Assembly (NCBI GenBank): GCA_019055375.1
Contig: JAHQIW010007131.1
Coordinates: 124,001-188,000, forward strand
Length of the DNA stretch: 64,000 bases
From: Parelaphostrongylus tenuis
Taxonomy: Eukaryota; Nematoda; Chromadorea; Rhabditida; Metastrongylidae
Reading direction: 5' to 3'
Below are positions 2,231 through 61,756 of the stretch, one piece after another. A program made the position numbers and the translations under genes. Below the pieces are notes generated by a model, which worked only from the letters and a program-made list of their open reading frames with translations, made no database searches and was not told the DNA's origin. How positions within the stretch are numbered: the first letter of the stretch is position 1; each line of letters starts with the position of its first letter.

Positions 2231-4439
2231 AGGTCAAAACTTATGAGAAAACCTAATATAAGGTAACACCGAATTCCTAGTCACTCAAAAATGAGAAAAA
2301 CGAAGTTGATTCTTTCAAATCATACCTGCTTTACCAGAAGTTCTGATTTTCTTTGCCACTTCCAGACGACACATACCTCACCATTGCACGTTTCATTACA
2401 TCTTAACATAAATTATAAATCTCTTAGTGGAACTTCTGCAGAATCAAACCTACACCAGAACTCGCGACATCTTATGCGCCACAATATGAACAGCTTTGGA
2501 AAACACTACGAAGCTGATAGATTATAGCAATAATTTTTATGCTGCTTTTTCCTTGTAAAAAGGGAACTGTTTGTGGATCAATTAGATGGTATAGGATCAG
2601 TGAGAAAGAACGATTGGATTGTCTTAGACCTAGCAAGCTGAATATTGAGCCATAAAACTCAGACAAGGTCTGTTCTATAAAGGTTTAATTCCTCAAAAGA
2701 TGTAAACTATGTTTTCAAGATAATTGCCATTATTTCAAAAAACTGGCAGTTTTCTGATATCACGTGACTTAAACGTTATCTATAAAATTTGACTTTTAGT
2801 GTGGGGACTGGAGCAGCCACACAGGATTGGAAAAAGACGAGAAAGGGTGACTGCCCAACTGACAAGATCGTAAGATTGAAACACGTGCATCAGGCTCTAT
2901 AAGGCAGCCCTCTTCAATAGACCACTGACATGCGTGGCTTAATAAAATATTTACCCGGCATATAAAATTTTATGCACCTTCCTTTACTACGTTGTTATCG
3001 CTTGTATATCTTGCCGAGGACATATGGTTCAAAGGGTCAGCTTCTGCACTGATTATTCTAATGCATTCGAGGCTGCATGAGCAAGACAGTTTCATAGTGC
3101 CCATATCTTTCACGTCGTGCGAGGACAGATTTAGGCACACACAAACTTTACTTTAGCCCTTTGAGTCCTTTTCAACTCTTCGGTGACACAGAGCACACAT
3201 TTGAGTACATTGGCAATCAAGGAACTTTTCACAGGATACGACTTTTAACCAGAATTTCTTGACTGGAGAGTTCGTTGTTCAACAGCTCGAGAAACGCAGA
3301 GATTAATATTTGTATTGCCTGTGCTTGGTCCACTCAGTGCCTTCTCAGTGCGCTGCACCGGTAAAAAGAAAGTCACGCTTCTCTTCTGGAGTAGTGAGCC
3401 ATTTCCTTGAAATTCGCAGCGGGTATTTCTGCAACTTTTTAGTAAAGTTAAAATGATATAATCATCTTATCGTTGAGAAAGATAGCATTTAACCGGAAAT
3501 ACATCTATGAAGATACTTTTAGTACAAGGAAAGCTCATGCGCTCTGAAATCCTCAACTTTTAATGAGAAAACTGCATTGATAGGATCTCAATGTTTCCCC
3601 AACTCTTAGTGCTCATATCTACAACGATAGAATAAATTCTCTCCTATATTTCTATAGAGGTCTAAGCTCCTGAAGTACACTATTAATCATAAAATTGCTT
3701 AGAGTTATCAATGAACGGGCATAGCATATGGTGTGCAGCAGCATTTCTGGCGAGTAATTTGTTGTTTTTTGATTTTCAAAAATTTTGATAAGATTTTGGT
3801 ATTCTATGGAATGAGAAATATCAAAACAACAGAGTATTCATCAAAGTTTTCTCCACCCAATTTATAGAATTTTATTAACAATTGTGAGCGAAATATTAAT
3901 CGGTGGACATAGCGACCTCAACACACAAAATATTGCAAGTGCAAAAACGTTTCCAAAGCGCGAAGAAAATTCGATATGTAGAGAAAAATCACAACATGAA
4001 GGAACGGGCCTACGTATAAACTGCCAGAGTGGCCGATGTGATATGCATAAATGTCACATTTTCCTGATTTATGATTGCTTTCCATCACTACGCCAGCTAT
4101 TCCTCACATTAGCTTACTTTCACCTCTTTCGGGTGAAAATGCTGAGCAATCATGCTAAGAGACTCTGTCCGTGAGATGAACTGCCATGTGCATCCTTGTT
4201 ACAATACTCACTAACATTTGTAAGCCACGGTGATGCGATAAAGATTTAGGAGAGGCCCAACATAATCGATAGCTAATGAGAAATTACAAATAAGTTTCGG
4301 ATTGAACTGCTTCCTGGATCTCATTGTGATGCAATCTTGAAAACCACGTAGATAATTGCTGGTGCAGAAAACAGAACATCATGTTTAATATTTCAAGGTT
4401 TATTTATTTATTTACATACGAAAAACCCTAAAAATAAAA
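2231..4439. other. No gene seen apart from a hammerhead relic
   Basis: Apart from the hammerhead relic around 2840-2960, this stretch is AT-rich with only short chance frames. I see no exon supported by both splice sites and composition. Confidence 0.5.
2853..2895 (+). ncRNA. Hammerhead ribozyme motif, inactive-looking
   Basis: GCCCAA, CTGACAA, a GATC..GATT stem, GAAA, CACGTG and CA are present. The core G of CUGANGA is changed to A, and the U before the cleavage base is C. It is a decayed copy of the family. Confidence 0.6.
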
Positions 4440-4680
4440 AATAAAATTACTGTGCCAAATAATGTAGAGTGCTACGCAAGAACATTTGCGTCAGCAGGAC
4501 TTCGAACTCAGATTTCACTCTTTCCGGGAGCGTGTGCTAAACTGTTGCACTGCGCGCTCCCGGAAAGCGTAAGATCTGGGTGGAATCCCGGCTGACGCAA
4601 ATGCTCTTGCATAGCACTCTACATTATGGGCATATTATAAGATCATGCCACCTCAAGAGGCGGTCAAATAAATAAATTCC
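4440..4680. repeat. Fold-back element with tRNA-like arms
   Basis: TTTGCGTCAGCAGGACTTCGA at the left returns inverted as ...AATCCCGGCTGACGCAAATG at the right. Each arm ends in CTCTTTCCGGGAGCG or its inverse. The arms resemble the T-arm and acceptor half of a tRNA (GGTTCGAATCCC type). The outer end has a short hairpin (CCACCTCAAGAGGCGG). Confidence 0.7.
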
Positions 4681-5709
4681 GATTAAAAAAATATTGTCCA
4701 TTATTCTAAGATTGGGATCAACAATAAATTTATCACATGTAATGATGCGCTCTGTAAAACATGAATAGTTTGACAGTTAAGCGTAGAGCTCTACTCCTTT
4801 TTCACAAGAAGCTTTGGACCCTTACGTCAATACGAAACAGTTATCGAGTAGTCTTTTAGCTCAGTGCTTTCTACAATTATTGAGCTGACACACACTTTGT
4901 ATGAATGTTTCACTCGGTATTTCACTCCAGTGGATTCGACTCGATGCGATTACGAAGCTCCACATCGCAAAGACGAGCGGCTGTGTATTACCGACTCAAA
5001 TTAACCCGATTCTGATGGGGATGAAGAGGTCGAACCGTTAATTGATCGAATTTTTTATACCAATCTAGTGTTATCTTAAGATTTCAATGGCCAAGTCTTG
5101 TCCATAAAAGCCATACACATTTTCCAATGGTCAGTCTTGGCAAACAAAATATTCTCCTGAAGTGCTTATAATTAATCAAAAGTTTGATTCATGCAATTGC
5201 TTCCACAGATTTTATTTCGTTCACTTTGTTGACGAAGTTTGTTGCAAATAATGAAAAAGCAATAACTCACATGCTATCTGCTAATTACAAAAAGTACAAT
5301 AAAATATTTTTGTGCACAAAGAAATCTCTGCAAGTTGTGGTATCTATGAAAACCATGCCTTTTAGGTGCATGAAATCTTGTTATCGCTGTCATTAGTGTT
5401 CTTTCGCATATCATTTTGTAGAAAATCTCGTTTACAATGTAAGCTCACTGTCCTACAGCTTCGTCAGTTGCACGGCGCCTTCCTTCCGGTTCAGTCAGTT
5501 CCGCGGGGAGATATTCCCCACATAGAGGAACCGGCGTCAAAATATTTACACCTGCCTTTAGGTGAAAAAATAACCCAATGAGAAGTGCTGTACACTTGGT
5601 TGCTTTTTTTTCAGGAATATGGAGACTTGGCTCCTCTGCGCCGTTGCATTTTATTGTATTTTCCATCTAAGAAATCTTTTTCTCCATGGTTCGGAGGCAT
5701 AAATAATAA

Positions 5710-6035
5710 TGAAAGGATCTATTGAATTTTGAGAGTGATTTTGATAAAGCACTCAAAATAAGGTATAATGTGATGAAAATACCAGCCAAAGAGCAATCGA
5801 GTGCGCAAACACTCTGTGTTAGGTGAAAATTTCGCTTGACATAGAGTGTAAAACTTTCGTCTTCGATAACTCTCTATAAGGGAGTAGAGCTCCCGAGAGA
5901 ACTAACTATAAAAATATCAAAAGACGACGGGTTCTGCCCGACTGACGAGTGTGTAAGGACGAAACACGGTATCGGCCTGTACAAGAGCCTTTGCCAGACC
6001 ACATGACAAGTTGGCTTGAATAATAATGAAAAGTT
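5710..6035 (+). mobile_element. Hammerhead-family repeat element
   Basis: This roughly 320 bp unit runs from TGAAAGGATCTATTG through a hairpin around the TAGAGCTCCCG segment and the hammerhead motif (5936-5977), to GACAAGTTGGCTTGAATAAT. The same unit occurs at 11590-12185, 15560-16215, 31410-31680, 38040-38420, 56061-56877 and 60315-60750. No open reading frame is shared by the copies. Confidence 0.8.
5936..5977 (+). ncRNA. Hammerhead ribozyme motif, near intact
   Basis: Stem I GCCCGA, CTGACGA (5942-5948), stem II GTG..GAC and GAAA (5961-5964) are seen. Stem III is CACGGTA, lacking one T compared with intact copies. Stem I 3' strand is TCGGCC. Confidence 0.7.
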
Positions 6036-6069
6036 CGGAGAATATTTCAGCGTTTCTCTTAACTTACAT

Positions 6070-9952: not shown

Positions 9953-11589
9953 ATAAGTAACATCATAATGCTGCTAAAAAAAGCAGTAAAAGTACAGAAT
10001 TCCTGAGTATCAAATCAGAAATTAGTGTCAGAGCAGCAATTTCATATTTCCTGCTTATGTCCTCGAAAATTCGATTCCAAAATGAATTACAATTTGAATT
10101 TCTTCCTCTACACATAAACGCGTGCTGTGCAGGTGTTGGAGGTGTCTTATAGTACAAGCTGAATATTCCGTCATTGGTTCAAGTCCCGTGCTGCAAGTTT
10201 CCTTAAGGCTTCCAGCCTTTAGGGATCGGCAAGGTAGCGGACTTGTCTGACAAGTTGTACTTTGGTAGGCCACTGCATGTCATTCTATAGAAGAAATAAG
10301 CATTTAGTCACTTTTGCACAGACTTGTCAAAGTCGAGTGTATGAAGCATCCTTCATTAATGGGGTAGGCCGCACGTTTTATCACCACTTCGCTTTCGCGC
10401 TTTGAAAATATAAAACAAACACATAAGGATGATGATAAGGACTCCAACTGCTTAACAATTCGCTGGCGAAAATGAGTAGTGGTAACATTTGGGTGCTGTT
10501 CTAGGAATCCTTTTTCCCTTTCAGTTAGAATCAACATCAAAGGAAAAGGTGAAAACATCAGAGAAAATGAGCTTACGACAACATTTATCACAGTCATCCG
10601 TTAATGAACAGTATCATGTGAAAGGGGATAATAGAGAAAATGATAAGCATTCAAGGTAATTCGTTGACTTGAGTAAATGAGAATCCCGTTGTCTACTTAG
10701 TTCTAAGCTGATTACTTCAGCAATTCCCGTGAATTGGAAATAGAACGCCATGTTTCAATTAAAAGCACACACTCGCAAACGAGTTGATGACGTTCCTCAA
10801 TACCCTGGGGAGATGCTGTCTCCCAGAGTTGGCTCTGAGCAGCTACTTTTGTCGTGTGAGTAGAAACATTTCCTTATAATTTATTTTACAGCTGGATGCG
10901 CACATTAGAGGAATTGGAGGTACGGAGGTTACCTAAATGTATATTATTCATGTCAGACTTAAGCCACATGGTGATACCAACCCATTCGAGATCGCATGGG
11001 CAATAAACTGCCCAGTGCAAAGTGAGCTAAAGATTGCGCGCGAAGTCGACAAGTCGACCAACAAGCATCATGAAGTAGAACACAATATTCTCCACAAATA
11101 GTCATATTTTGAATACGTTCTGATTATATCTGCTGTATTAGGCATCGTGCCTATAGGTTTTGTTAGAGATAGGGGAACGTCACACGTATTCCCAGAGACC
11201 TATTAACATCGTATCCAAAAATTTCATCAGAAGCGAACAAGAGACGACGTCTCCGCTATATCCAGCAACTCAGCCCTACAGATTGCGCATATAAGCCCTC
11301 ATTTTCACTCCAGAGATGCTTTGAATGCGACACCCGGTTGCCTCCACAAATAGAGTTTCCCGGCCCCTCACGCCTCTGAACGCATCATGCCTTTATGGAG
11401 AGAACGAGTTGCACGAACGATACAAACGATGATGATGCGATATGATCGCTCTCTTCGTCTTGTTACGATCGTCATGTAACTAATTCGCTTTGTTGATCGT
11501 ACACAGTTAAATTACCCAAGATTCGTTACCATTGATAAATGGTTGCTCATTGTCACTGCTACCGTTTCAACAATGATAGGTTGTTTTTG
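9953..11589. other. No supported gene
   Basis: A minus frame at 10304-10597 has some protein-like sequence (EREKGFLEQHPNVTTTHFR), but no matching donor or partner exon was found. Nothing else stands out. Confidence 0.4.
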
Positions 11590-11638
11590 TTATTATTTGA
11601 GTCAACTTGTCATGTGGTCTGGTAAGAGCTCTTGTACA

Positions 11639-11682
11639 GCCCAATACACGTGTTTTCGTCCTTACACACTCGTCAGTCGGGC
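11639..11682 (-). ncRNA. Hammerhead ribozyme motif, one extra A
   Basis: The minus strand gives GCCCGA, CTGACGA, GTGTGTAAGGAC, G-AAAA (one A more than the GAAA core), CACGTG, TA, TTGGGC. All else in the core is conserved. Confidence 0.7.
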
Positions 11683-12032
11683 AGAACCCGTCGTCTTGCC
11701 GATCTTTTTATAGTCAGTTCTCTTAGGAGCCCGGCTCTCCCTACAGAGAGTTATTAAAACGAACGTTTTACACTCTGTGTCAAGTGAAATTTTCACCTAA
11801 CACAGAGTGTTGTATACTCGATTGCTCTTTGGCTGGTATTTTTTATCATATTATACCTTCATTTCGAGTGTTTTGTTAAGACCACGCTCAAATTTCAATA
11901 GATCCTTTCATTATTATTTGAGCCAACTTGTCGAGTGTAGAGTGTAAAACGTTCGTCTTCGATAACTCTCATTAGCGAGAGTAGGGCTCCCGAGAGAACT
12001 GACTAGAAAAAGATCGAATGACAACGGGTTCT

Positions 12033-12075
12033 GCCCGACTGACGAGTCTATAAGGACGAAACACGTGTATCGCGC
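12033..12075 (+). ncRNA. Hammerhead ribozyme motif, core intact
   Basis: GCCCGA (stem I), CTGACGA (12039-12045), stem II GTC-TATAAG-GAC, GAAA (12058-12061), CACGTG, TA, TCGCGC. Stem I has one mismatch. Predicted cleavage lies after A12069. Confidence 0.8.
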
Positions 12076-12789
12076 TGTACAAGAGCCCTTACCAGATCAC
12101 ATGACAAGTTGGCTTAAATAATAATGAAAGGATCTATCAAAATTTGAGCATGGTCTTAACAAAACGCTTGAAATGAAGGTATAATGCAGGGTTGGTTTTC
12201 ATGAAAGTTTGATTTCCCATATTTGAAGTTGAATATTTGCCTCGAAAAAAAACACATTTGGCAGGATCCGGTATAGTAAAACAGCGAACAGACACAAACG
12301 GATTCGTACGAATAGGTTCAATTTCAAACCAAGCGAACTTGGTTTTCTACTTAGAAGTCAATAGCCTCCAGGAGTCTCGCTCGAACGCAACGTGGATCAC
12401 ACTACCATCGGCACATGTGCAGTATAGTGCGCATATAAAGTTTAGTGGGTTCCAGACGCCTCTTAGGGCATCATGTACATTTTTTCGATAGCTAGTCGAA
12501 GGGAGATCGAGATAGGAGAGCTAAACGAGAACGTCGTGCACTCAAGAATATACGGAAGAAACCTTTTCAAAAGGAGAGCATTGAACGGTGATTTGACTAA
12601 ATAATTTCATCTCAGTCGTTAAGGTAAATAATGATTAATTCATCATAAATCTCAAAATCGTCCCAAAGGCTGATAGAAATGCTTGTAATTTGGATTTTAG
12701 TAGTGCATACAAAATATTTATTTTTTAGGTACTTTACTGATCCGTCTCCATAGTGTTTTTTTTTTCCACTGTGCGGATCAGTACTTCTA

Positions 12790-13652: not shown

Positions 13653-16600
13653 CTATAATACATTCAACGCCTGCATAAAGGTACGGATATTACGAATTAC
13701 TGGATCTGCTCGACCGCCACTAAATAATTCAACATCTAATAACAAGTCTAAGCGTTTTAATTGCTCTTCTACTGCAGCAAGACGACGTTGACCGTCTTGA
13801 CGTCGGTTCATGTCGCTAGAGGCGCGAATCTCCTAGACAGAACGGTGAGGCAAATTTCAAGACGAAGAAGTTCCCGAACAAGATATGAAGATTATACACC
13901 TGAAGAGAAACTTACCATTGCCTCCTTCGGTGTTAAGCCGATCAATGACGAAAGAGTTGAACTATCAATGATGCAAATAAAGCTATCAATGGACACATCC
14001 TGTATAGTGACCTAAACACAAAGAACAGTCCATTGATAACCCAAATATGTCCTGCTGCAGGAAAAGAACCACGAAATCAAATACAAGCATCTATTCGTTG
14101 GCAAACCAACCTTCATGGTCCACAGATCATCAACAATTCGTAAAGGTACAACAATATCCACAACGATACCCTAAAAACTCTTTGTAAATTGGAAAAACAG
14201 GATACCTACAAAAAGCCTACCAACTAGTTGTAATTACACACCCAAGTATATGAGTGATACTGCAAAACCGTCGACCGCAAAAGGGAGTTGAACCAGTCTT
14301 TTAACTATACAAGGGGCGCCTTTTGCCACTACACCACCAAGGCCATCGCTTTATTTCGTTATATACTATCACAGCTGCCAGCAAACAGCCTCTGGAGGGT
14401 TTGGGCGGGTAAGCACATATCGGCATGAAACGCAGTTGAGTTGACAGCCATTGGAGTAGGTCTATACCTATGCGAGAGGCGGCTTCGATGGTGGCAATGG
14501 TAGTAGGCGCCTCCGGTATGAGTGTAACGAAAATTTCAACTTTCAACTGGGGTAAAATGTTTTTGCATAACACTCACCATACTTAAATGTATAAATATAA
14601 CATCGTAACACTGTTATTAGAGCAGTAAAGTAAAGAATTCTTATACTTTCAGCTGTTCTATAAAATCAAAGTTCACCTGTATAGTTCGCCGACATGATCC
14701 TACGGCGAAGCGCATTTGTTTTAATGCATCAGCTATGTACACAACGTTCAAAGCTTGGAACTTCGCCACTATTTCGTCCTCTTGAGACTTCTTCAAATGA
14801 TAAAGATGCAACACACTTCACAATTGTTAGAGGATACTAGAAAAGTTCAAAGAGACAAAGACCTGTGCAGTTTTGAACGCCTCTGAGACGGGTGGTGGAG
14901 TTCTCAACAAAGAAGTAGAGGCAGTCAGGTTACTCAGCTCAGTTGGCTTGATATCTTCCTCATCGTCTAAGTCTACGACTTCAACTTTGACCTCAAAAGT
15001 AGGAACATGACTTGTTATAATTGGGAGGAACGGCCTCCACATTATAGAATAGTGTGTTACCTAGTAAGTTAATATTGCTGTCAAAGTCAGCATACAAAAG
15101 CTCCATTCCAAAAATTGCAGAAAGTAACTACTATTTTTATCCTAAATAAGATGAATCGGACAGGTAATGTTCTCTGAGGACAACTGATGAATGACAGCCG
15201 TTATGCTACTGAAATCGGGAGTCAAGCATAGCACAGAAAGATCACCGACTGGGTTCCATTTCCTTACAGAAAGTCTACAAGGAAAATCCGGTGCCCAGCA
15301 AAATTCCTTGGCGAAGAGGATCCACTGCGCTACTCTTGCACGCGACAGGGAAAAATGAAAGACCTACTGACACCCGCTCGAATCACTTGACGATCAACGG
15401 GACAACATGTGATAGAGAAACTGCTATTTCCACCTGGATTATTTGATCTGTACATTCAGTAGCGAAAGTCATTGCAAACTCTACTGATTGAAATTGCCAG
15501 ATACACATGTCCTTGTCAACCATATAAAAGTGGGTCCATCCCACCGCCCTAAAACTATGACCTACTGACCGTTCGTTTCGAGTGTTTTCTTAGGAGTATG
15601 CTCAATCAAGTTATCTGACAATTACTTTTTGAGCCAACATGTCATGTGATCTTTTATGGGTAACCTACAGAGCCCATTACACGTATTTCGGCCTTGACAG
15701 CCTCGTCAGTTGGACAGTGCTCTTCGTCTTAGCTAATACTGTCGGGGGGATTCCCCTACAGTGAGTCGGCGACGACGTACACTTTACACATGCCGTCAAG
15801 TGTAATGAATCATTAAATCGGCAGTGTTATACACTCGATTGCTCTTGGCTGGTACTGACGAGGCTGTCAAGGCCGTAACACATGTATTGGGCTCTATAAG
15901 TTTCCATGAAAGACCACATGACATGTTATTTCAACAAAAAACACTCGAAACGAACGGTATGATATTTTGTAAATACCAGACAAGAGCAATCGAGTGTACA
16001 ACATTGCAGATCTGATGATTTATTTCACTTGACAGCACGTGTGAATCGTAAGTGGTCGCTCACTCATAGAAAGGGTTAGAGGCCCCCGAAAGGATTGGCT
16101 AAGACGAAGGGTACTGCCCACCGACGACGCTGTCAAGGCCGAAACACGTGTATTGGGCCCTATAAGTAGCCCATGAAAGACCACATGACATGTTGGCTCA
16201 AAAAATAATTATCGAATATGGCCTTCTGAATTCCACAAATCTTCCTTTGGTAAGCGCCGATATGTGCCTATGAGGCCTAACCCTTCAACGGTTCCTTGCT
16301 GACACGGCAGGATATACCGAAGAAAAAGTGGTAACAAAGGGGTGACCTCCATGGTGTAGTAGTAACACGCGCCTTTCGTACGGTGTGGAATGCGGGTCCA
16401 ACTCTCGTCTAATATTCAGCACGTAACTTGCCAAGTCTGCTGAGTGAAGGAGAATTTTAATGTCGATACCCACTACGTTCCCACCGTAGCTGGATTTTTG
16501 AACAATGATGATAACTCCACAACCATAAAAGCACTTCAATTGCCTCCGTGCCGAAAATATAAGCGCTAATGTAAATTTAGAAAAAAAAGTGCCATAGCCT

Positions 16601-30959: not shown

Positions 30960-31285
30960 CGTAACACAAGCATTAGATGTTTGTGCAAAAGCGTTTGCGT
31001 CAGCCAGGATTCGAACCCAGATCTCACTCTTTCTGGGAGCGTATGCCAAAAAATGCACGACCGACGCTCGTTTTGCACAGCACTCTTTTAACGCTCTAAC
31101 GCGTTACCTGCCAACAGCCAACCGTGGACGGTCTGGTGCCAACGATTAGCATACGCTCCCGGAAAGAGTGAGATATGGGTTCGAATCCCGGCTGACGCAA
31201 ATATTTTTGGACAGCACTCCACATGATGATTGGGTATACTGTAACATCATACCACCGCAAGTGGCGGTCAAATGCAAAGAATTCC
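30960..31285. repeat. Fold-back element with tRNA-like arms, well preserved
   Basis: Left arm GCGTCAGCCAGGATTCGAACC and right arm GGTTCGAATCCCGGCTGACG are inverted copies. The centre has AACAGCCAACCGTGGACGG, which recurs in other copies. The outer end is TACCACCGCAAGTGGCGGTC. Confidence 0.7.
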
Positions 31286-31409
31286 GACCAATCATCATTT
31301 ATTCAACAATATGCAATTTATAACAATAAGTTTTAACAATATGCACCCTATGACAACATAGTATATGCTCATGCTAATAAAAATGTATACCAGATGAGTA
31401 AAGATATAA

Positions 31410-31680
31410 GATGATAAAAATACCAGCCAAAGAGCAATCGAGTGTACAACACTCTGTGTTAGTTGAAAATTCCACTTGACATAGAGTGAAGAACGTTTGT
31501 CTTCGATACGTCTCTATAGGGAGAGTAGAGCTCCCGAGAGAACTGACTATGAAAAGATCGAAAGACGACGGATTCTGCCCGACTGACGAGTCTATAAGGA
31601 GGAAACACGTCTATCGGGCTGTACAAGAGCCCTTACCAGACCACATGACAAGTTGGCTCAAATAATGATTGAAGGATCTG
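31410..31680 (+). mobile_element. Hammerhead-family element
   Basis: The copy starts within the unit (ACCAGCCAAAGAGCAATCG) and ends GTTGGCTCAAATAATGATTG. Its hammerhead is at 31577-31619. Its ends are permuted relative to the 5710 copy, as would happen if circular or multimeric RNA were the template for insertion. Confidence 0.75.
31577..31619 (+). ncRNA. Hammerhead ribozyme motif, core intact
   Basis: GCCCGA, CTGACGA (31583-31589), GTC-TATAAG-GAG, GAAA, CACGTC, TA, TCGGGC. Stem I is perfect. One pair of stem II and one of stem III are lost. Confidence 0.75.
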
Positions 31681-37735: not shown

Positions 37736-40287
37736 TTGCCGCAGAACAAGCAGCGTCTACTACTTCAAACATCGAGAAAGGTGACAACATATGCTTAAGA
37801 ATCCTTGAAAACATTGTTGAGTACATTCTTGAAAAACATCTCATACAATAATAACTGAAAAAGTCATGACGTTTATCGATGTGACTGGAAATAAATCTTA
37901 TCAGATCATTAGGCATAAAAATAAAGACCTCCAAGCACAGTTCTCAAAGAGTTAGAAAATCAGTTCTTTCCTTGATACGCTTATGCAGTCTATTTATTAA
38001 CAAAAGCAATGGATTATTCAGTCTATGCCAAAACTGATATATTTTTCGTTTCGAATGCTTTCTTAAGACCACAGCTCAAATTTTAGTATAACAAATAATC
38101 ATTTTTTAGCCACACATTTCATGTGGTCTGCTAAAATGGGCTGACTTATAGAGCCCGATAGACGTGTTTGGACCATGCGGTCCCAACAGTCAGGTAGTTA
38201 CCCTTTCGTCATTTGCCAATAATGTGTGGGTGCTTCACTCCCCACACTAAGAGTTAACGACGACGAACGTTTTACACTCTATGTCCGGTGAAATTATCAC
38301 CTAACACAGGGTGCTGTATACTTGATTGCCCTTTTCTAGTATATTTAATATATCATATCTTTCGTTGAAAGTCAGCCCATTCTAACAGACCACATGACAT
38401 GCATAGCTCAAAAATGATTATTTGGCATATTAATATATTTTTGTTCCTCAGAATCACAATTGACCACACAAGTGACAAGGAAACCATATATTAAATTAGT
38501 TAGAAGATCAAAACTCAAAAAAGCCGGTAATGGCTTCAATAAAAGGAAAAAATATTTTCGGTTCTTCACCGTTATACGGCGCGGGACGAAAAAGCGATCC
38601 TTCTTGTTCGACAAAAACTTTCCATGAGAGGGTTAGTAATCATTTGAAGGCACAAATCTTTGGCTAGTGCAGCACTTGGCCGTTGTTGAAAAACGCTTTT
38701 CTATAATGCTGCAAAATTCAAAATAAAATAATGTTTTGCATCGGCAGCGTAATTTTACTATTACTTCGCTAAAAAGCACGAAAAGCGCATCATCGTTCAG
38801 AGGAATGTCGCAGTATCAGAGTCATACGTTTTATCTCGTGTTTCTTGTAAAGCGGAGAGAAAGTTTCCAATGAATAATGAAAAGCGCACTTCACATGTGA
38901 CCTGTCAATGAATTACAATCGATCGACGCTGGGCTGCTGCATTGAATCTATGGCGGCCACCCACCCGACCGTAGCTTAATCGGTAAATAAGCGGACCAAT
39001 AATGTGAAAGTTTATCTTGTTTTTCCTGTTACGTTGCAGTGGAACGGTCTTTCCAGTGAATGAGCACAACATTGGAATCATGGAAACTTATGCTGTCGAA
39101 CCATTACTAGTAAATTAGAGGAAGGGCTCTATCCTGCGAGAAATATGCGCATGTGGAACACAAATGTTTTCCTTTCGCTGAAGCGTCATCAAAAGACTTT
39201 TTCATAAACGACCACCTACGGCACTAATCAAAAACTCAAGTATTCAAATTTTCAAATTAAAACGCTCTTATGGAAAGCTTTTGTCCAGCTAGAGGGATCT
39301 TTTCTTCATTCCGTTTCGTCAAATGCAAGAGAACCAGTTTTTAGTGGTTCTGTTCCAAGAATGTCAAAGAACCCCCTGTTTGGTCAAAGGGTTTCAACCA
39401 AACGTTATTTCTTCTCCTAGGTCTTTGGAATAAAATTTTAGATACCGCGCTTTCAACGCTTGAAATCAGCTAATTCACGAATGTTTTTGATTAGCAAACC
39501 CTTACATAATTTTATGACACTCGTTCTATTAATATCGCCCTAGTTTTTTTTTCTTTTGGTCAAAAGCGCTAGTGCTATTCAATCGTTGGTATAATTTATA
39601 AATGTAAGCTATCCGTTTTTACGCTATTAGTGTGTCTTAGTAAAATGCTGAAAAGCATCATACCACCTCTGTGCAACTTATAGAAATGACAGTCCGGAAG
39701 ATGGATTGAACTTATCCAAAATCTATGTATTTGATAATGATGAAACTGTGAATTTCCTTGAACAAAGCCACTATTGGACCGACGATTGGCAGGATGTTTT
39801 CTTTTTGATTTAGCCTTGGCGAAACGCTGACAATGTTATATGGAAGCCTATTTTATTATTCTCGGATCTAATCTGAGCGAATGTCTGTAGATAGCCATTC
39901 TTGTGCGTTCGCATGTAGTCATCCTTGTGAACTGAACCGTAGCCTTCCGTTCGACGCCAAATTATGCGATGATGTCAGTGATTCATGAAATTGTTTTTGG
40001 CGTTAATCGATATTCCATATGCCAAAATTCCACATCTCATCCTAGACAAACTTGATAATTGGCTGAGTTTCCTATTCCACATTTCAACATCGACATAAAC
40101 TATCTCGTTTTGGTAAGGTGAGAGTCAGAAAGGACAAAAATTCGTTTATAGAAGAACAATACTTTGTGAAAAATCCAAGTTTAGTAAATATGGAATGAAA
40201 ATTTGCAATGAGAAGCCTTTACTTTATTACAGGTTACGGTCAGGAGAAGCCCAAGGCAGTGGAGACTGCAAAAGACGTTGTTTCATT
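37736..40287 (+). CDS. Two short 5' exons of the giant repeat protein
   Basis: Exon 37736-37780 (45 nt) lies between a TTTTAG acceptor and an AAAG/GTGACA donor and reads AAEQAASTTSNIEK. Exon 40233-40287 (55 nt) lies between TTACAG and GTAAGT and reads GYGQEKPKAVETAKDVVSL. Only one reading frame joins both exons to the large exon without a stop, and the codons split by the introns (G/GT and TT/G) are then completed. The intron 37781-40232 holds a degenerate hammerhead-family element (38040-38420) and a fold-back fragment. Confidence 0.6.
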
Positions 40288-52200: not shown

Positions 52201-55200
52201 TTGAGGTATGCGCCATACATTAGACTCAATAAAGCATCGTAAGAAGTAATCGAGTACATATGTTAGCCCACACAATGACTCGCGGTGGCCTAACGATGTG
52301 TCACGTTAGTGCAGCTGTACATCCAGCCACGTTTGATACCAACCTACATGGATGGAAGGATTGATGAGACTGGAGTGTCGATTTAACCAATGTCCTTGTA
52401 TGGAAGAGCACCTTATGATTGCGCTGCACGATCCCCCAGTGTTAAATTACCTAGAAAAATACACAATAATGTGAAATACGAAGCTTAATAGGGGATGACT
52501 ACTTGAATAGAAGATAAAAGGATAAGGGATAAAGCTCTCGGCGTTGATCAATCCCTGAGGGATGTGCCATGCATTCGTGTTTAATTTTTAGCTTCGTTTG
52601 AGGTGAATAAATGCATATCTGGCATTTATAATGACTCGCGGTGCCCTCCCGATGAGCCGAGTCAGTGCTGCTTATCCTCCTAGACAAGTCTAAGACCAGT
52701 CTGGTACCAGTTTACCGCCCCCGGAGGGATGAATTTCTTAGTGAGCCATGAGCGCGAGGTCGAACCATTGACCTCGTGTGCGACGCAGAGCACCTTTAAC
52801 CACTGCGCCGCATGTGCTCGAGCAGAAGATAAGTGGTGGATTTTTTATCGTTCTCCAATAGGCACATTATATGTGGTTTCATTACTCACAAACATTCAAT
52901 ATCTTCCGACCACTTCTGCTAAGTTTTGGTTTTTCACAATAAGAGCAGAAAAAAAACTTGAAAACTTTGAAAGGTTTGATAAACTATCCATGGATGCACT
53001 ATACATTCAACTCCCTTCGCAACATGAAAGGACTGATGAATGCAGACTCGGTCTATACAACACGTTTTGGAATTCTCCCAATGTACCAACTCGTTATCCT
53101 TCATTTAGGCAAATCTAATGCCAACTTTTCGGTCCCTGGAAGAGCAGAGAGTTTGGTTAAACCAGGGCGAAGAGTGGAACGAAAAATAAACCGTTTGTTG
53201 CACGTCACCTCTGTATTCTTTGAATTGGCCAATTTGTATTAGTAGAGATTAGCGAATAGCAGAGTTCGGGTTCGATACAGAAGGCCAGTGCACCAAATTC
53301 AGTATAATTCAGAGTTTCGGGAATCCCCAGCTCAGAATAATTACTACGACGAAATAGAATGCTCGCTTTTTACACGAGGCTGCCACGCGAAACTCATTAA
53401 CCTAGGTATGAAGAACAATCACACACTTGGATTTTAACTGTTTATGACAATAAAAAAGTGTAATATGAGCTATGTGGCGATATAAAATTGAGTGAATAGG
53501 CACGAATGAAGTTGGGGCAACACTGGAACACTGGAACACAGGAACTCTGGAACTCTGGAAGCTCCGGTACATATTGGAGTCAGGCCTACATAGGGCCGAT
53601 GACAAAGGTTTCGTCCACTGAAACACCAAGTCAAGGGAAAGTAAAAGCCGTATAGCTCTTAAAAAGTGTGAGCACAAAAGATTACAAGCGCGCCTCTAGT
53701 GGGAGAAAGTTCAGAGCGCCAAAAAGTTACAAGTGCACATTTTGACGGGAAAGAAATAAAACAGTCTGTAGTAGAAGTGCATGTGAAAGCGATGCTATTG
53801 CGTCAAAGAAAAATTCATGGGAAAGCAATGAGTTAGTATGTGGTAAATGTTGTTGTGAAACTATATGACAGCTTGATTGTAAGTTTAAGTATATTCAATT
53901 AAGAAAGAATAGATGTTTGGTAATCACAATTAATAGTTAATCTAGGAAGCTCACGACAATGTAAGAATAGGAACTATTCGGGGAACATATCCAGTAACGT
54001 AGGGTGATCTGTAAAACTGGGCCATTTGGGCCTCGAACCCACATTTCACACAATCCGAGGTCGCGTGCTCTAACCCGCTGCACTACTGACTCCCGTTTCC
54101 ACACACCACTCTTTCTACACTACAGCGCACTTATCTGCCAGCAAACAACCGTCAACGGTTTGGCCTGGGTAGTCGGTATCAACGTTGAATCCAGTCACGT
54201 TGACTGATATTGTGTATTAGATGATCAGATCGGATTCTCTAATCGCTTTTAATGAGGTATGATGCTGTAATATATCGAGTGAAGTAGGATGATGTGCAAA
54301 ACTTTTGCGTCAATTGGGACTCGAACCCATGTTTCACCCTATCCGAGGGCGCGCGCTCAAACCGTTGCACTACCGACGCCTGTTTCGACACCACTATTGC
54401 TACGTTACAACGCAAGATTGGTGTCAAAACAGCGTCGGTAGTGCAACGTTCAAATACGCGCCCCCGGATGGCGTGAAATGCGGATTCGAGTCTTAGTTGA
54501 AGCCAAAGTTTTGCACATCATCATACTTCACTGGGTTTACTATAACATCATACCACCGCTAAAAACGGTTTAAACAAAAATAATTTCAAATGATTTTTCG
54601 GGAAATAATTACTGGAACTTCCAACTGTTGCGCACTGTAATATGATTCACATTGAAAAACGACTGGCGACACGAGCTAATGAAAAATTATGTGTTAACAT
54701 ATATTTTTCCAGGCTGAATCGATTTCCTCATGGAAGACCGTATGTTCAACCTCACTCAAAAAAGACTTTTACACCTTCGGTGGCTTCAAGCCAGGAACAA
54801 AATATGTAGTGACGATTTATGCTGCAACCCCTTCGGATAGAAATTTTCCATTAAAAGAAAGCCGCTCTCTTCCACAAGAACCGATCCAAGGTTTGTCAAA
54901 TGAAAAGTCTCTCCTTTAGAGAAGAAAAATCTAAAGACATTTAGAGATCGGATTTTTTAAGAGTTGATAATGATGATATAAATCTTAGAGTAATTGGAGC
55001 AGTAATAAATTCAATTTTGAACGCTAAACTAATGTTTTTTATCTCTCGGTAGTTTGTGAATGCTCAATTACTTTTTATGGATTTGAACAATCTAGTAATT
55101 TCAGTTCAAAAAAATTTCACAAATATCACTTTACCTGAAGATTCCATGGTTACCAAGCGTTTTTGAGGTAAGGTTATTTTCGAAGTTTGACCATTGTCAC

Positions 55201-57532
55201 TGGGTGAAATGCACTGATTCAAAACGTATCCATTCGTCTTCTTTCGTTATGACTATTTCTGTCTGCCACTCTTTGATATTCAGGAAATTTTCTTCGGAAA
55301 ATGGCATGACACTGAGACAAATGACTTTATCTCCTCTCTCTCTGTCACTAAAATAAATGAGGATAACCACGAATACTACGAGGCAAGTACTTACTAGTTC
55401 CGGTTTCAGATCTTATAAAAACTTTCAGCACCACGCTTTGTTAGACGCTTGATTGAAACTTATTCAGTCACTTGATTCTTTGAAATTTCGATGAGGCAGA
55501 AACTTATGGGGCTCACACAATCGCGCGATAGCTTATTAAAAATCGTATATGCGCATCTAGAAATACTGAATGAAAGTCCTGAATTTTTCGCATCAACGCA
55601 AGAATGGTTTCTTCAAAATATTGTTTTCTTCCTCTAATATTTATTGTAATCCAAGTTGTCTATTTGTTTCAACTGACTGAGAACCGTTCTTGTCGTAAAT
55701 ACTAACTGTGCTATGTGATTACATCTACAAAACAATTCCGTGAGAGCGAAACTTATTCCATCAATTGGAAAAAAATCCGGAATTTTTAGAAAGGATTTCA
55801 AGAAGTCGAGTAGAACTTTCTTAACAGCTTTTGATGCACTTTCATGCCAATCACATATTGTGACAATGGTTCATTGGAGTAGACGCATGTGTAATTTCAA
55901 CAAAAACTATCCATCAAAGTGAAATCATTTTTTATTTGACCGCCTTGCGGTGTTATGATGTTACTATAGACCCAAAGATGATGAAGAGTGGTGTGCAAAA
56001 ACGCTTGCGTCAGCAGGGATTTGAACCCAGATCCAACTCTTTCCGGGAGTATGTGCTAAACCTGATAATCATTATTTGAGCCACGCATGTCAGTGGTCTG
56101 TTAATGAGGGCTGACTTATAGAGCCCGATACACGTGTTTCGATCTTGCGATCTCGTCAGTCGGGCAGTTACCCGTTCTCGTCTTTTGCTAATCTCTGTGG
56201 GTGCTCCAGTCCCCACAATAAGAATTAGCGACGACGTATGTTTTACACTCTGTGTTCAGTGAAGAACTCACCAAACACAGAGTTTTTTTACACTCGAATG
56301 CTCGTGGCTAGTATATTTAATATAACATATCCTTCATTTCGAGTGTTTTCTTAAGACCACAGCTCAAATTACAATATGCCTGATAATCATTATTTGAGCC
56401 ACGCATGTCAGTGGTCTGTTAATGAGGGCTGACTTATAGAGCCCGATACACGTGTTTCGATCTTGCGATCTCGTCAGTCGGGCAGTTACCCGTTCTCGTC
56501 TTTTGCTAATCTCTGTGGGTGCTCCAGTCCCCCACAATAAGAGTTAGCGACGACGTATGTTTTACACTCTGTGTTCAGTGAAGAACTCACCAAACACAGA
56601 GTTTTTTACACTCGAATGCTCGTGGCTAGTATATTTAATATAACATATCCTTCATTTCGAGTGTTTTCTTAAGACCACAGCTCAAATTACAATATGCCTG
56701 ATAATCATTATTTGAGCCACGCATGTCAGTGGTCTGTTAATGAGGGCTGACACGTGTATCGGGCTCTATAAGTCAGCCCTCATTAACAGACCACTGACAT
56801 GCGTGGCTCAAATAATGATTATCAGGCATATTGTAATTTGAGCTGTGGTCTTAAGAAAACACTCGAAATGAAGGATATATGTGCTAAACCGTTGCACCAC
56901 CGACGCTCGTTTCGCACTCCACTCTTTCCATTTCGCAATCCATCAAACTAATTTCTAAGAATGTTAGAACCTTACCCCGAGGTTGGTGCAACAAGGTCAT
57001 ACATCGGTGTTTCGGAGGTCTCGACCTCCTCGTCAGTGACCTACGCCCCACATTAAGCCCTGCATTGTAGCAAGTAGGGCGGCGTAAGTGGTGACGGAAG
57101 AGTGTACGATGACACTGTGCCACCAAACCATTCCATAACATCCAATCGCAATGTCGACTTGAAATTAGTATTCATTGAGTGAGTAATTAGTAATGAGTAA
57201 AGACTCGGATAACCAATTCTTAAGATTGTGAGGTCCAGAATGAGGGAAAAGAGGTTATACAGAGATCAAGGGGTAAGAAAATGGTCTGAAAGAGCAGTAA
57301 ATATCACACTTATGTACACTATAGTGTACACATGGTACAGAATGGGTTTGAAGTTTGAACGTCACATCACTAATCTTTCAGACTAATCTGCAAAGTATCT
57401 TCGATGTTTCTGAACAGGGATTTTTACTAAATGTCAATCCATTTCCACCGGAACTCATCCAATCCGATCGTTGCCCCAATGTGCTCATCCATGGCAAAGG
57501 CGATACTGTCAAACTCCGTCTATCTCTCTCAG
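37736..57532 (+). CDS. Giant repeat-rich protein with fn3 and Ig-like domains (partial gene)
   Basis: Exons with compatible phases: 37736-37780, 40233-40287, 40379-48754, 48863-48972, 49025-49160 (or from 49061), 52025-52137, 54713-54890, 55105-55167, 55284-55382, 57382-57532. The protein has a short N-terminal stretch, about 27 tandem 64-residue charged repeats, a 600-residue disordered linker, an fn3 domain and the start of an Ig-like domain. The layout recalls titin/obscurin/twitchin-type muscle proteins, but no specific family member is recognised. The model probably continues past 57532, since the last exon ends in phase 1 within an Ig domain. The start is not found. Several frameshifts in the big exon and one in 55105-55167 break the reading frame as given. 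Confidence 0.7.
38040..38420 (-). mobile_element. Hammerhead-family element, degenerate
   Basis: The unit on minus has inverted ends: CATGTGGTCTGCTAAAATGGG at the left returns inverted near 38380. The hammerhead (38153-38193) has lost the core (GAAA to CAAA, CUGANGA disrupted). It lies in the intron between 37780 and 40233. Confidence 0.7.
38153..38193 (-). ncRNA. Hammerhead ribozyme relic
   Basis: The 3' half (CACGTC, TA, TCGGGC) is recognisable, but GAAA is CAAA and the CUGANGA box is broken. Included as part of the family only. Confidence 0.45.
38421..40232 (+). other. Rest of intron before exon 40233
   Basis: Fold-back D sequence lies at 38600-38870, and a tRNA-like scrap (CCGTAGCTTAATCGG) near 38970. 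Nothing coding is recognised. Confidence 0.45.
40379..48754 (+). CDS. 8.4 kb exon of the giant protein, with frameshifts
   Basis: The exon starts after TTTCAG with TKKRGRPVTVSPQKKEL, an AT-hook-like KRGRP core. It then runs through Glu/Lys/Thr-rich sequence, the 64-residue repeat array and a Ser-rich linker, to a TCAG/GTACAC donor. Frame changes occur near 40745, 41640, 41790, 42060-42175, 42890-43095 and repeatedly at 44010-45415, then at 46815 (A8) and 47510 (A6). At the last two, removing one A restores the frame. Runs without breaks include 43102-44010 and 45407-46815, so selection for an open frame is evident. The breaks look like consensus errors, with real pseudogenisation as the alternative. 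Confidence 0.75.
41489..46830 (+). repeat. Tandem 192 bp coding repeat (64 aa x about 27)
   Basis: The period is exactly 192 bp in the clean stretches; for example AAAGAAATGAAGGATACTGC recurs at 43501 and 43693. Each protein unit contains KDTAKEKAIYEERSLKTKL, then a K-P-S-E-G-L-G-T-S segment, ET.PCKDFQGYEERNRNA and SLISKADLEHIQ. Copies in the centre (43.3-46.0 kb) are nearly identical, while outer copies are diverged, as expected if the array grows by unequal exchange from the middle. The units are highly charged and predicted helical. I do not recognise the repeat. Confidence 0.9.
48863..49160 (+). CDS. Two linker exons of the giant protein
   Basis: Exon 48863-48972 begins after TCTAG and reads EWKVAGDESEKFTELCVALP, ending GCTGAG/GTATAC. 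Exon 49025-49160 reads to SSLTAEELVQ and ends CAGG/GTGATT. A second in-frame acceptor at 49060 would give a 12-codon-shorter form. The final G pairs with AG at the start of exon 52025-52137 to make GAG. No domain is recognised in this part. Confidence 0.6.
49490..50110. repeat. Fold-back repeat, third type
   Basis: GGGAAGAAGGTTGCTGGTTCG (49619 onward) returns inverted near 49970 as a GGATCATCAACCTTCTTCCC-type segment. A related single arm is at 30640-30870 (GGGAAGAAGACTGCTGGTTCG). It lies in the intron after the exon ending at 49160. Confidence 0.5.
50385..50955. mobile_element. Head-to-head mariner fold-back in intron of giant gene
   Basis: Left arm on plus starts after ACTTTTGGCACTAGA and reads MDLSWEQIWLLFMHDWRIG. 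The right arm on minus reads SWEQMGLLLMHEWHVGEML and VNSLEDQSHSGRP. The terminal inverted repeats contain TTTTGGCACTAGA at both ends. The family is the same as at 6660-7215. The catalytic domain is missing. Confidence 0.75.
51300..51490. repeat. Half of a tRNA-like fold-back
   Basis: Outer hairpin ACCGCTTTTAGAGGTGGT, then GACGTCAGGCGGGATTCGAA and TTGCATTACCGACTCC, i.e. the left arm only. Confidence 0.5.
52025..54890 (+). CDS. Fibronectin type III domain split over two exons
   Basis: Exon 52025-52137 ends KPRLMKDAYRVEIKE, and exon 54713-54890 continues AESISSWKTV..., then GFKPGTKYVVTIYAATPSD. This is the typical fn3 pattern Y-R-V-E ... W ... G-x-x-P-G-T-x-Y-x-V-x-V. The join is phase 0 and falls between two strands. 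The 2.6 kb intron between them carries SINE copies and a tRNA-like fold-back (54255-54585). In intracellular giant proteins such domains pair with Ig domains. Confidence 0.75.
52172..52435 (-). repeat. tRNA-derived SINE, family A, heavily diverged
   Basis: AGCTTTTGGCGTTGGCAAATC at the left and ATGACTCGCGGTGGCCTA inside match the family. It starts only 35 bp after the exon ending at 52137. Confidence 0.6.
52511..52819 (-). repeat. tRNA-derived SINE, family A
   Basis: A full copy with the tail (GATAAAAGGATAAGGGATAAAG region) at the left and the head at the right, in an intron of the giant gene. Confidence 0.85.
53990..54585. repeat. Two tRNA-like fold-back elements
   Basis: A partial copy at 53990-54240 (GGGCCTCGAACCCACATT) and a complete one at 54255-54585 with arms GCGTCAATTGGGACTCGAACC and GGATTCGAGTCTTAGTTGA. 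Outside those are TGTGCAAAACTTTTG and its inverse, and the outer hairpin ACCGCTAAAAACGGT. Confidence 0.7.
55105..57532 (+). CDS. Three exons leading into an Ig-like domain
   Basis: Exon 55105-55167 has an in-frame stop as written. With one A fewer in its A7 run it stays open and ends in phase 0, matching the next exon. Exon 55284-55382 reads WHDTETNDFISSLSVTKINE and ends GAG/GCAAGT, a GC donor. Exon 57382-57532 contains NVLIHGKGDTVKLRLSLSG, the A'/B-strand pattern of an I-set Ig domain just before the usual G-x-P-x-P. The intron 55383-57381 holds the hammerhead tandem array. Confidence 0.55.
56123..56165 (-). ncRNA. Hammerhead ribozyme, fully intact
   Basis: Minus strand in order: stem I GCCCGA, CTGACGA, stem II GATC-GCAA-GATC (4 bp capped by a GNRA tetraloop), GAAA, palindromic CACGTG, TA, and TCGGGC closing stem I perfectly. 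All conserved core bases are present. The expected cleavage site is GUA/U, between 56129 and 56128. This is the open-stem-I (type I) arrangement. Stem III has no loop, so an intramolecular fold would be unstable and a dimer is the likelier active form. Confidence 0.88.
56441..56483 (-). ncRNA. Hammerhead ribozyme, fully intact, second tandem copy
   Basis: Identical in sequence to the motif at 56123-56165, exactly 318 bp away. Cleavage at both sites of one transcript would release a unit-length 318 nt RNA, the product type that is ligated into circles in known hammerhead satellites. Confidence 0.88.
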
Positions 57533-59391: not shown

Positions 59392-61756
59392 TCATTGATG
59401 AGTCCAGTCTTCATCACTGTGTAGCATCGACTGGAGGACGAGCTCATGCCGATTTTGATCATGCTTCGCCTGCTCGGCTTGTTGTTCATCTTGTGCTACT
59501 TTGATGAAGTTATCCACAATGATTGTAATCGGTAAGGCTAACACCAATACTCCACACATGATTGCCGCTGATGCGATGATCTTTCCCACTGAAATGTCTC
59601 AAAAAATTGTCGATTCACTTTTTTATCTTTTAGTCCATTCATTTATCTTTTATGGGAGCGCCGTGGCTAAGTGGTAGTGATGCTCGTCGCGGTGCGAGTG
59701 GGACTGATCCCCAACCCCCACACTCTTCGGCAGTCAATAGCGAACGCTACGGTCAGGCTATCCTCTGGATTGCGCGGAGACGCGTTCAATGAATATTCTA
59801 CAACGTTCGAGAAGAAGACGAAAAATTGATCGAATTTTGCAAGTAGTGGGAATCGCACAATGAAAAAGGGAAACACTATGAAGCGGTAGATAAGATATCT
59901 AACGTTATCATTCTATTACTTATTATTATACCTTATAATATCGAACATTCTTATTACTTCCTTTTTCACACAAATAAAGCCGAAAAAGTAGTCCACAAGC
60001 CTTACTGTTCGTTGTGTTTTAAACTCTTCTTATAGCATATAGATGAAGTATTTTCCTAAAGTGAGCATTGTGAATTCTACAACCTCGTTTAATGCACGAC
60101 GAAAAAAACCCACAAATTTCATAAACTAAATGTGAAATTTCCTCGTTGCCTATTTCTAACCCAGACTACTAATATTTTTCCCAAATGATCTGAATCCTAT
60201 TTGAAGCTTCTGTCTACAAGAGGATTGGGTAAACTTAATCAATTTACTTGTTATGACATGGAAGAAACCATTCAAAAACCTGTCTCCCATTTTTCATAAA
60301 AGTTTCTGTGAATAGTTTTATTTTGAGTGTTTTATTAAGACCACGCTCAAATTTCAATGGACTCTCCATGATTATTTGAGCCAACATGTCATGTGGTCTG
60401 GTAATGGGCTTTCGTACAGCCCGATACACGTGTTTCGTCCTCACAGACTCGTCAGTCGGGCAGATCCCGTCGTCTTTCGATATTTTTATAGTCAGTTCTC
60501 TCAAGAGCTCTGCTCCCTTACAGAGAGTTATCGAAGACGAACGTTTTACACTCTATGTCAAGCGAAATTTTCACCTAACACAGAATATTTGCTCACTCGA
60601 TTGCTCTTTGGTTGGTATTTCTACTATATTATACCTTTAATTCGAGCGTTTTATTGAGACCAAGCTCAAATTTCAATGGATTATTCAATATTATATCTGA
60701 GCTAACACGTCATGTGGTCTGTTAATGGGCTCTTGTGCAGCCCGATGGCTTTCTGTGAATATCTTTCAGAAGCATAGATTCCGGTCATAGCTATTTCTCC
60801 GATTTTTGAGAACTTCTCCGTTGATTAGTATTAGCAGTTGAGATGGTCAAGACTTGTGATACGTGTGAGTAAGATTAACATTTACAAATTCGAGAACTGC
60901 TCTTGGAAACATCAAACTGAACGAAAGCCTGATAGTCTTGCATGAAGACTTTATCTTCTTTGCGAACTTCGTGAAGTGCTAGTCGGGCAGATTACCTATC
61001 TTATTGAGTCAATAATTTATTCTAATGCGATGACCAATGACGCTGAGATTGGTCGATCTGCCATGTGCTAATCGAATAATCGAAGAATAAGGACCGAGTA
61101 AAAAATTATGCATAGCATTTTTGAACAAAGTATTATAAGTAAAACCGAACTTGGAAACTCACTAGTAGTGGCTGGAACTGCATCTCCATATCCAACTGTG
61201 GTCATGGTCACAATGCACCACCAATACGCCGCTGGTATACTAGTGAATGGCGTACCATCTTCGTCCTTCTCGAGAAAGTATATCATTGTCGAGAAGAAAA
61301 CGACACCCGTCAGTAACACTATAGTCATCATTTGCAGTTGTTTTTTGTGATCGTTGTAAAGTCATACCAAATGTTTGCAATCCGGATGAGAATCGACCAA
61401 GTTTTATAATTCGGATTACTCGTAGTACTCGTAGTATTCTCACTACAAGAAATGCCCATCGTAAGTCACGTAGTTTTTTTGTCATCAACACCACATAGAG
61501 TGAGCAATAATTCGAGGTAGAAAGGCACGATAGCGAGCAAATCGACGAGATTCAACGGTTTAAGTGCGAAACGTAACTTTCGCGGTGCTGCAAATAATCG
61601 TAGGCAATACTCGACAGTGAAGAATGCAATGCAGATTCGTTCAGTGAAGACAAACACCGGATGCTCGACTCTCATCTCTTCGACCCTTTCCACCACTGTA
61701 ACCGTGCCATTTGGAAGCACTATTGTTTCATTGTGCGGAGGCATGTAATGTGTTAC
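59392..61756 (-). CDS. Voltage-gated K+ channel, Shab/Kv2 type (S2 to C terminus, EXP-2-like)
   Basis: This is the pore-forming alpha subunit of a tetrameric plasma-membrane K+ channel. Exon 61756-61163 holds the S1-S2 loop with N-glycosylation sites, S2, S3, S4 (RILRVLRVIRIIKLGR, charges every third residue), S5 and the pore (TMTTVGYGD). Exon 59588-59392 holds S6 (MCGVLVLALPITIIVDNF) and a short tail. The intron phase gives ACT-A/TG-GGA. EKDEDGTPFTSIPA before the pore matches Kv2/Shab, and C. elegans exp-2 is the best candidate, by memory only. Two frameshifts, at A7 (61475-61481) and A6 (about 61351-61356), are each cured by removing one A. T1 and S1 exons are not found and should lie upstream (higher coordinates). 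Confidence 0.88.
59652..59835 (+). repeat. tRNA-derived SINE, family B
   Basis: Head GCGCCGTGGCTAAGTGGTAG (A-box-like), then ACTCTTCGGCAGTCAA and CAACGTTCGAGAAGAAGACG. The same unit, mostly on minus, occurs at 12790-12965, 13140-13330, 22560-22760 and 22855-23065, and on plus at 1360-1540. Confidence 0.65.
60315..60760 (-). mobile_element. Hammerhead-family element in K+ channel intron
   Basis: One full unit on minus (hammerhead 60419-60461) is followed by the start of a second (about 60640-60745), again head to tail at roughly unit spacing. It lies on the sense strand of the channel intron 59589-61162, so it would be present in that pre-mRNA. Confidence 0.8.
60419..60461 (-). ncRNA. Hammerhead ribozyme, fully intact
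   Basis: Minus strand: GCCCGA, CTGACGA, stem II GTC-TGTGAG-GAC, GAAA, CACGTG, TA, TCGGGC. Stem I is perfect and the core complete. It lies on the sense strand of the K+ channel intron, so cleavage would occur in that pre-mRNA if active. Confidence 0.85.

Follow-up and report, generated by a model that had tools for sequence, protein, structure and literature searches.

A hammerhead repeat with two recurrent insertion ends in a nematode genome: a probable retrozyme with features suggestive of Penelope-type mobilisation

The window analysed here is a 64,000-nucleotide (nt) stretch of Parelaphostrongylus tenuis DNA (assembly GCA_019055375.1, contig JAHQIW010007131.1, positions 124,001 to 188,000, forward strand), and its central feature is a repeat with a unit of 318 nt that carries type I hammerhead ribozyme motifs. 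Also present are a Kv potassium-channel gene, a second, unrelated hammerhead, a short interspersed element (SINE)-like repeat and a tandem array. The repeat family comprises 12 hammerhead copies within eight insertions, I1 to I8, and its insertions end preferentially at two sites shortly after the predicted ribozyme cut. An earlier note on this DNA had described a dispersed family in which nine copies were decaying; by blastn and alignment these all belong to one repeat together with the intact copies, and the 12 copies are spread over the eight insertions.

The motif is present where that note had placed it, and the copies starting at 56123, 56441 and 60419 lie on the minus strand, which the note did not give. 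The type I layout (CUGANGA...GAAA...UH, a three-helix junction with stem I open) is complete in three of the 12 copies, where no core base is altered and none of the 12 pairs is lost, in agreement with the three intact copies first reported. All core bases are retained in eight copies, two of which contain small indels (an extra base at GAAA in the copy at 11639 and a missing base in the stem III loop of the copy at 5936), and core changes occur in the other four. A covariance-model search, which had been proposed as a check, matches four copies to Rfam Hammerhead_1 (cmscan), although all four score below the gathering score of 34. The I8 copy scores best (31.5 bits, E 0.00075), followed by the plus-strand copy of I3 (29.4 bits, E 0.0037) and the two I7 copies (27.7 bits, E 0.013 each). 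The core pattern, CTGACGAN and GAAACACGTGTA separated by 4 to 30 bases, has four matches in the window and none in 100 dinucleotide shuffles. Similarly, a strict descriptor (full core, with at least 5, 3 and 2 base pairs in stems I, II and III) finds four sites, the three intact copies and one new site, against none in 100 shuffles. Together with the Rfam matches, these counts bear out the hammerhead claim; the hammerheads of the family are real as sequence motifs, and their self-cleavage is predicted from sequence.

A covariance model built from the 12 copies recovers the same 12, by construction, and gives nine additional matches up to E 5. Two of these fall below E 0.01, one at 56714-56779 (E 0.0049) spanning the junction of the I7 arms and one at 56979-57059 (E 0.0091) corresponding to the second hammerhead; the other seven have E values of 1.4-4.4. 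No match in viral contigs is found for exact patterns representing the ribozyme, the region containing the two end sites or the second hammerhead. The core pattern has eight scattered matches, with spacers of 13-30 bases, in prokaryote genome contigs; they are taken as chance because a gapped 19-base pattern was searched over 257 billion bases.

Stem II differs among three subfamilies of the repeat, with pairing mostly retained. At column 34/44, the 11 distinct rows contain five UA, three AU and three GC pairs. None of 500 shuffles reaches the observed covariation score (0.288) or the observed proportion of paired cells; the number of pairs altered on both sides (three) is reached by 144 of the 500, and the number of additional pair types (11) by 263. 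The covariation of stem II, which had been offered as a sign of selection on structure, is thus real in that pairing is maintained, but it is weaker than claimed, since independent changes are few and lie mainly between the three subfamilies.

Direct repeats of 9-13 bp border five of the eight insertions (I1, I5, I6, I7 and I8), with a chance probability of 0.004 to 0.0001 each. These values were obtained with a control anchored to the borders (30,000 random pairs), from which the insertions and the tandem array at 42-47 kb are excluded, and P is about 0.0001 for I7. A looser control had given 0.028 for 13 bp, a value attributed to that array, and was replaced. Four insertions (I3, I4, I6 and I7) contain a head-to-head inverted arm, and exact target repeats are found in two of them (10 bp in I6 and 13 bp in I7). 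In addition, the joined flanks of I7 align across the junction to five places in the SINE-like repeat without an insert, which thus represent paralogous empty sites. The coordinates are collected in Table 1.

Table 1. Positions of the repeat insertions, their ribozymes and borders, and related features in the window (TSD, target-site duplication).
Feature	Position	Strand	Description
I1	2796..2963	+	5'-truncated; decayed hammerhead 2836-2910; 10-bp TSD 2781-2790/2961-2970, with unmatched bases between left copy and element
I2	5697..6063	+	Roughly a single unit, permuted; hammerhead 5919-5992 with intact core, lacking one pair each in stems I and II; ambiguous 3' end
I3	11589..12189		Head-to-head inverted pair; hammerheads 11624-11699 (-), 12033-12075 (+)
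I4	15572..16213		Head-to-head inverted pair; hammerheads 15657-15732 (-), 15837-15907 (+), 16099-16173 (+); third subfamily
I5	31397..31680	+	Direct; hammerhead 31560-31634; 9-bp TSD 31388-31396/31681-31689; 5' border unsharp in alignment
I6	38047..38432		Inverted arm 38369-38432; decayed hammerhead 38138-38212 (-); 10-bp TSD 38037-38046/38433-38442, overlapping last unit-aligned bases
I7	56061..56878	-	Two 318/319-bp direct units and partial third (56061-56751); 129-bp inverted 5' arm 56750-56878, 100% identical
I7 TSD, lower side	56050..56062		TATGTGCTAAACC; 11 bp if two bases also fitting the element are assigned to it
I7 TSD, upper side	56878..56890		Within tRNA-like part of SINE-like repeat
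I7 hammerhead 1	56123..56165	-	Predicted cut between 56129 and 56128
I7 hammerhead 2	56441..56483	-	Rfam match, full core
Site 1 on one I7 unit	56373..56387	-	Unit positions 60-74
Site 2 on one I7 unit	56324..56333	-	Unit positions 114-123
Predicted hairpin at putative reverse-transcription start region	56354..56417	-	AGACCAC/GTGGTCT and GCTCAAAT/ATTTGAGC; loop contains site 1; consensus fold of 8 copies
I8	60317..60746	-	1.36 units, without inversion; runs from predicted cut (5') to site 2 (3'); sense in Kv-gene intron
I8 hammerhead	60419..60461	-	Best Rfam score, 31.5 bits
I8 TSD	60303..60314 and 60750-60761		12 bp; 2-3 unmatched bases between TSD and element
Second hammerhead	56994-57042	-	Sequence-unrelated; complete core; stems I 6 bp, II 6 bp, III 3 bp

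The 12 outer 3' ends were positioned by automatic alignment and are counted in nt after the predicted cut, whose position at 56128/56129, given in the earlier note, stands as a prediction from the sequence. Six of the 12 ends lie at 60, 65, 68, 71, 73 and 74 (site 1, range 60-74), and five lie at 114, 114, 120, 120 and 123 (site 2, the 'tail', range 114-123). One of the site 2 ends, that of I6, is at 120 by alignment and at about 112 if the TSD is taken as the border, and the clustering test is unaffected by this choice. Two arcs spanning 40 of the 318 nt cover all 12 ends, a span reached by one of 200,000 random sets and by none of 200,000 in a rerun; without the single end of I2 the span is 23 nt, reached by none of 200,000. 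The two-arc statistic was picked after both clusters of ends were noticed. Furthermore, in all four inverted insertions the two outer ends are divided between the sites, one falling at site 1 and one at site 2. Over the 14 bases past each of the 12 ends, the longest A run does not exceed five. At its 5' side, I8 begins within one base of the predicted cut, preceded by three unmatched bases. Except for the short arm of I6, the parts of the insertions that align to the unit cross the cut junction; therefore the template is not a simple linear cut monomer, and an uncut multimer or a circle is indicated.

With the predicted cut taken as its start, the unit spans 318 nt, with a GC content of 42.1% in I7 and 40.5% in I8, and the tandem units of I7 are 99-100% identical. 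The longest stop-free stretches within I1 to I8 are 55, 62, 60, 68, 71, 36, 65 and 113 codons, respectively, and two stop-free stretches of at least 90 codons that overlap I8 match no Pfam family. As far as tested, the unit is non-coding. The circular fold of the unit is far more stable than those of shuffled sequences (z -5.3 for I7 and -5.0 for I8, 200 shuffles each). Stem III of the hammerhead consists of 2 bp around ACGU, and the eight bases ACACGUGU form a self-complementary palindrome. A forced double-hammerhead fold has an energy of -39.3 kcal/mol in I7 and -38.1 kcal/mol in I8, and the best single folds with stems I and II, without stem III, have -16.3 and -13.0 kcal/mol (doubled, -32.6 and -26.0). 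These modelled energies are compatible with hammerheads acting in pairs. Around the end sites, the predicted hairpin is conserved in sequence, and site 2 lies about 20-30 nt beyond its 3' side. Covariation is not found in this hairpin, where none of the 19 predicted pairs is altered on both sides and covariation contributes a penalty (+1.78).

The second hammerhead, near the upper end of I7, has no other copy in the window at the sensitivity of the searches. Rfam gives it a score of only 13.9 bits, as type III (E 2.1). In a 54-nt piece the optimum fold is exactly the hammerhead; in an 82-nt piece a different fold is optimal, with a stability that does not exceed that of shuffles (z -0.36).

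The Kv gene has an exon at 61164-61756 (minus strand) followed by one at 59407-59592 (minus strand), with the donor GTGAGT and the acceptor TTTCAG. The joined protein is 98% identical to that of Ancylostoma caninum over the full query, and in the upper part of the matches listed (120 of 7834) the named organisms are all nematodes, apart from a Bombus name within the title of one nematode record, in keeping with the nematode host supposed from the letters. The first of these exons has two frame breaks at 61340-61480 (minus strand), both at A runs. I8 (about 60312-60750, minus strand) lies in sense orientation, with its intact hammerhead, in the Kv intron at about 59589-61162; judging by its sequence, this hammerhead could cut the host precursor messenger RNA, with a possible effect on the host transcript. 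The SINE-like repeat, which has a transfer RNA (tRNA)-like part (GCGTCGGT...CTGACGCA), occurs at 4459-4675, 30982-31273, 54290-54588 and, split by I7, at 55928-56062 and 56878-56906; its copies form close inverted pairs at the first three of these places. The tandem array at 41483-46812 (plus strand) looks coding, with a period near 192 bp and 17 copies at 42963-46231 (88% match); its Pfam matches are scattered and weak, without a single stretch.

The insertions and the unit point to a non-autonomous retrozyme mobilised in trans by a Penelope-type enzyme, a reading to which we assign a probability of roughly two in three. In this mechanism, the repeat would be transcribed as a multimer, and its type I hammerheads would cleave this RNA at GUA^U to release units of about 318 nt. 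They would probably act pairwise, given that stem III has only 2 bp and that the palindrome can join two ribozymes. A Penelope-type reverse transcriptase/endonuclease, supplied in trans, would make staggered cuts about 9-13 bp apart. Reverse transcription would then begin inside the RNA, about 60-74 or 114-123 nt after the cut, in or just past the hairpin; the two sites are observed as genomic ends, and the enzyme that would use them is presumed. Where the two DNA ends prime at different sites, a head-to-head inverted insertion would be produced, and where only one DNA end primes, a direct copy would result, in tandem when the template is long. The copied RNA would be an uncut multimer or a circle, and a 5' end at the cut, as in I8, is what a cut multimer would be expected to give. 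As a general proposition, we lean slightly towards the view that animal retrozymes owe their mobility to Penelope-type enzymes and that the insertions record two fixed start sites beside the hammerhead, one per DNA strand, leading to head-to-head inserts. If true, the mover enzyme of retrozymes would be settled, at least for the group of the host worm. As the insertions appear to carry a Penelope-type footprint, the question of the mover is directly testable in one genome.

Several observations weigh against this mechanism. In a Penelope-like element of Anolis, hammerhead mutants insert equally well in vitro, cutting by the ribozyme required the element's protein, and no reads terminating at the cut were detected (PMC11167929); these findings argue against a straightforward part of the ribozyme in mobilisation. 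The circle of the I7 antisense strand is nearly as stable as that of the sense strand (-90.4 and -95.9 kcal/mol); in I8 the antisense circle is less stable (-67.4 and -87.4 kcal/mol). The predicted optimum fold of single intact copies differs from the full hammerhead (-19.3 kcal/mol in I7 and -17.5 kcal/mol in I8), and the optimum homodimer fold differs from the double hammerhead (-46.5 and -46.9 kcal/mol, respectively). The outer end of I2 lies at position 97 and matches neither site. I4 is without a target-site repeat, that of I3 is imperfect, and I2 has a weak 8-bp one off the aligned border. A Pfam search of the 60 stop-free stretches of at least 90 codons within the window finds neither a reverse transcriptase nor a GIY-YIG domain. 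Finally, the analysis of insertions rests on eight events, all within 64 kb.

Target repeats of such length and 5' inversions are also generated by long interspersed nuclear elements (LINEs), and the same animal retrozyme could have been mobilised by a LINE-type reverse transcriptase, with the inverted arms as products of LINE twin priming. Twin priming, however, is not known to place the outer border of an inverted arm at a fixed site, and both outer ends of all four inverted insertions fall at the two sites; the short A runs past the 12 ends also speak against a LINE. A LINE-type mover is thus unlikely here. In PMC7229834, where the question is left open, Penelope-like elements are strong candidate movers on account of shared features and co-occurrence, and LINEs are kept as possible ones.

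A closer relationship to the Penelope elements themselves would make the 318-bp unit a solo or tandem pseudo-long terminal repeat (pseudo-LTR) of a Penelope-like element remnant that has lost its open reading frame (ORF), and not an independent retrozyme lineage. The layout of I7, with direct units, an inverted arm and a tail, equals that of a Penelope insertion minus the ORF (PMC3846280), and minimal hammerheads occur in Penelope pseudo-LTRs (PMC7761336). Against such a remnant, the stop-free stretches in the eight insertions do not exceed 113 codons, those of at least 90 codons are without a Pfam domain, and all insertions align to one unit with three subfamilies, which looks like a lineage that propagates in this form. 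The repeat is not classed as a Penelope-like element because the stop-free stretches of the window contain no reverse transcriptase or GIY-YIG domains. A remnant is quite improbable, and the boundary between it and a retrozyme is thin. DNA elements too show tandem and inverted copies, and a DNA satellite or miniature transposon might resemble a hammerhead by chance; with the full catalytic core in eight of 12 copies, stem II retained despite changes, the strict descriptor absent from 100 shuffles and target repeats of varying length, such an origin is hardly credible.

Considered as a retrozyme moved by a Penelope-type enzyme, the repeat can be compared with several known systems. It fits the sequence-level features of the animal non-LTR retrozymes (PMC7229834), which have type I hammerheads, tandem units of 150-450 bp, a GC content below 50%, no coding capacity and target repeats longer than 4 bp (here 9-13 bp in five of the eight insertions). 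The unit RNA of these retrozymes is also highly self-paired; in the circular fold here, 62% of the bases are paired in I7 and 60% in I8, somewhat less than the figure of 70% given by PMC4918200. Beyond these features, the present family has head-to-head arms and two fixed end sites. The Schistosoma Sm-alpha repeats (PMC4918200, PMC6155905) likewise represent a type I hammerhead repeat in a parasitic worm, but they carry a tRNA, whereas the tRNA-like sequence here belongs to a separate repeat that received I7. The position of I7 within a tRNA-like sequence suggested a composite of SINE and ribozyme like Sm-alpha. This reading was rejected, since copies of the tRNA-like repeat without I7 are present and the second hammerhead lies upstream of the start of similarity of that repeat. 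Compared by description only, the newt and axolotl hammerhead satellites (PMC7229834) share the short, weak stem III; dimeric action is shown for them and proposed here.

Penelope-like elements resemble the repeat in the hammerhead, in two adjacent internal starts (here seen as genomic ends only), in tandem or partial tandem units, in the inverted arm and in target repeats of similar length. They differ in encoding a reverse transcriptase and a GIY-YIG endonuclease, neither of which is found in the window, and in a tail of 30-40 bp, compared with a spacing of about 50 nt between the two sites. They prefer AT-rich targets; two of the five target duplications here consist wholly of A/T, and the A/T content of the others is 56-75%. 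In the Anolis element (PMC11167929), both DNA strands are cut and extended, and two adjacent internal starts of reverse transcription explain the genomic 'tail'. There the cut is 26 bp inside the ORF and reverse transcription most often starts at 111-118, thus 85-92 nt past the cut, compared with 60-74 and 114-123 nt here. In rotifers (PMC3846280), a Penelope insertion contains two direct pseudo-LTRs and an inverted one, together with a 9-bp duplication and a tail of 31 bp that may or may not be present; target duplications are 8-10 bp among these elements. In the authors' judgement, the terminal repeats are enough for integration in trans, and the inverted junctions are interpreted there as products of self-priming on antisense RNA, unlike the route proposed here.

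The family, of which the earlier note knew no description, fits a described class, and the nematode case itself was not found in a search of titles and the beginnings of abstracts for nematode hammerhead retroelements or retrozymes. In the main text of PMC7229834 the strings nematod-, inverted, tail and worm do not occur, and the passages of PMC8490949 that mention nematodes do not concern hammerheads. Within the scope of the literature searched, the present family extends the hammerhead retroelements to nematodes.

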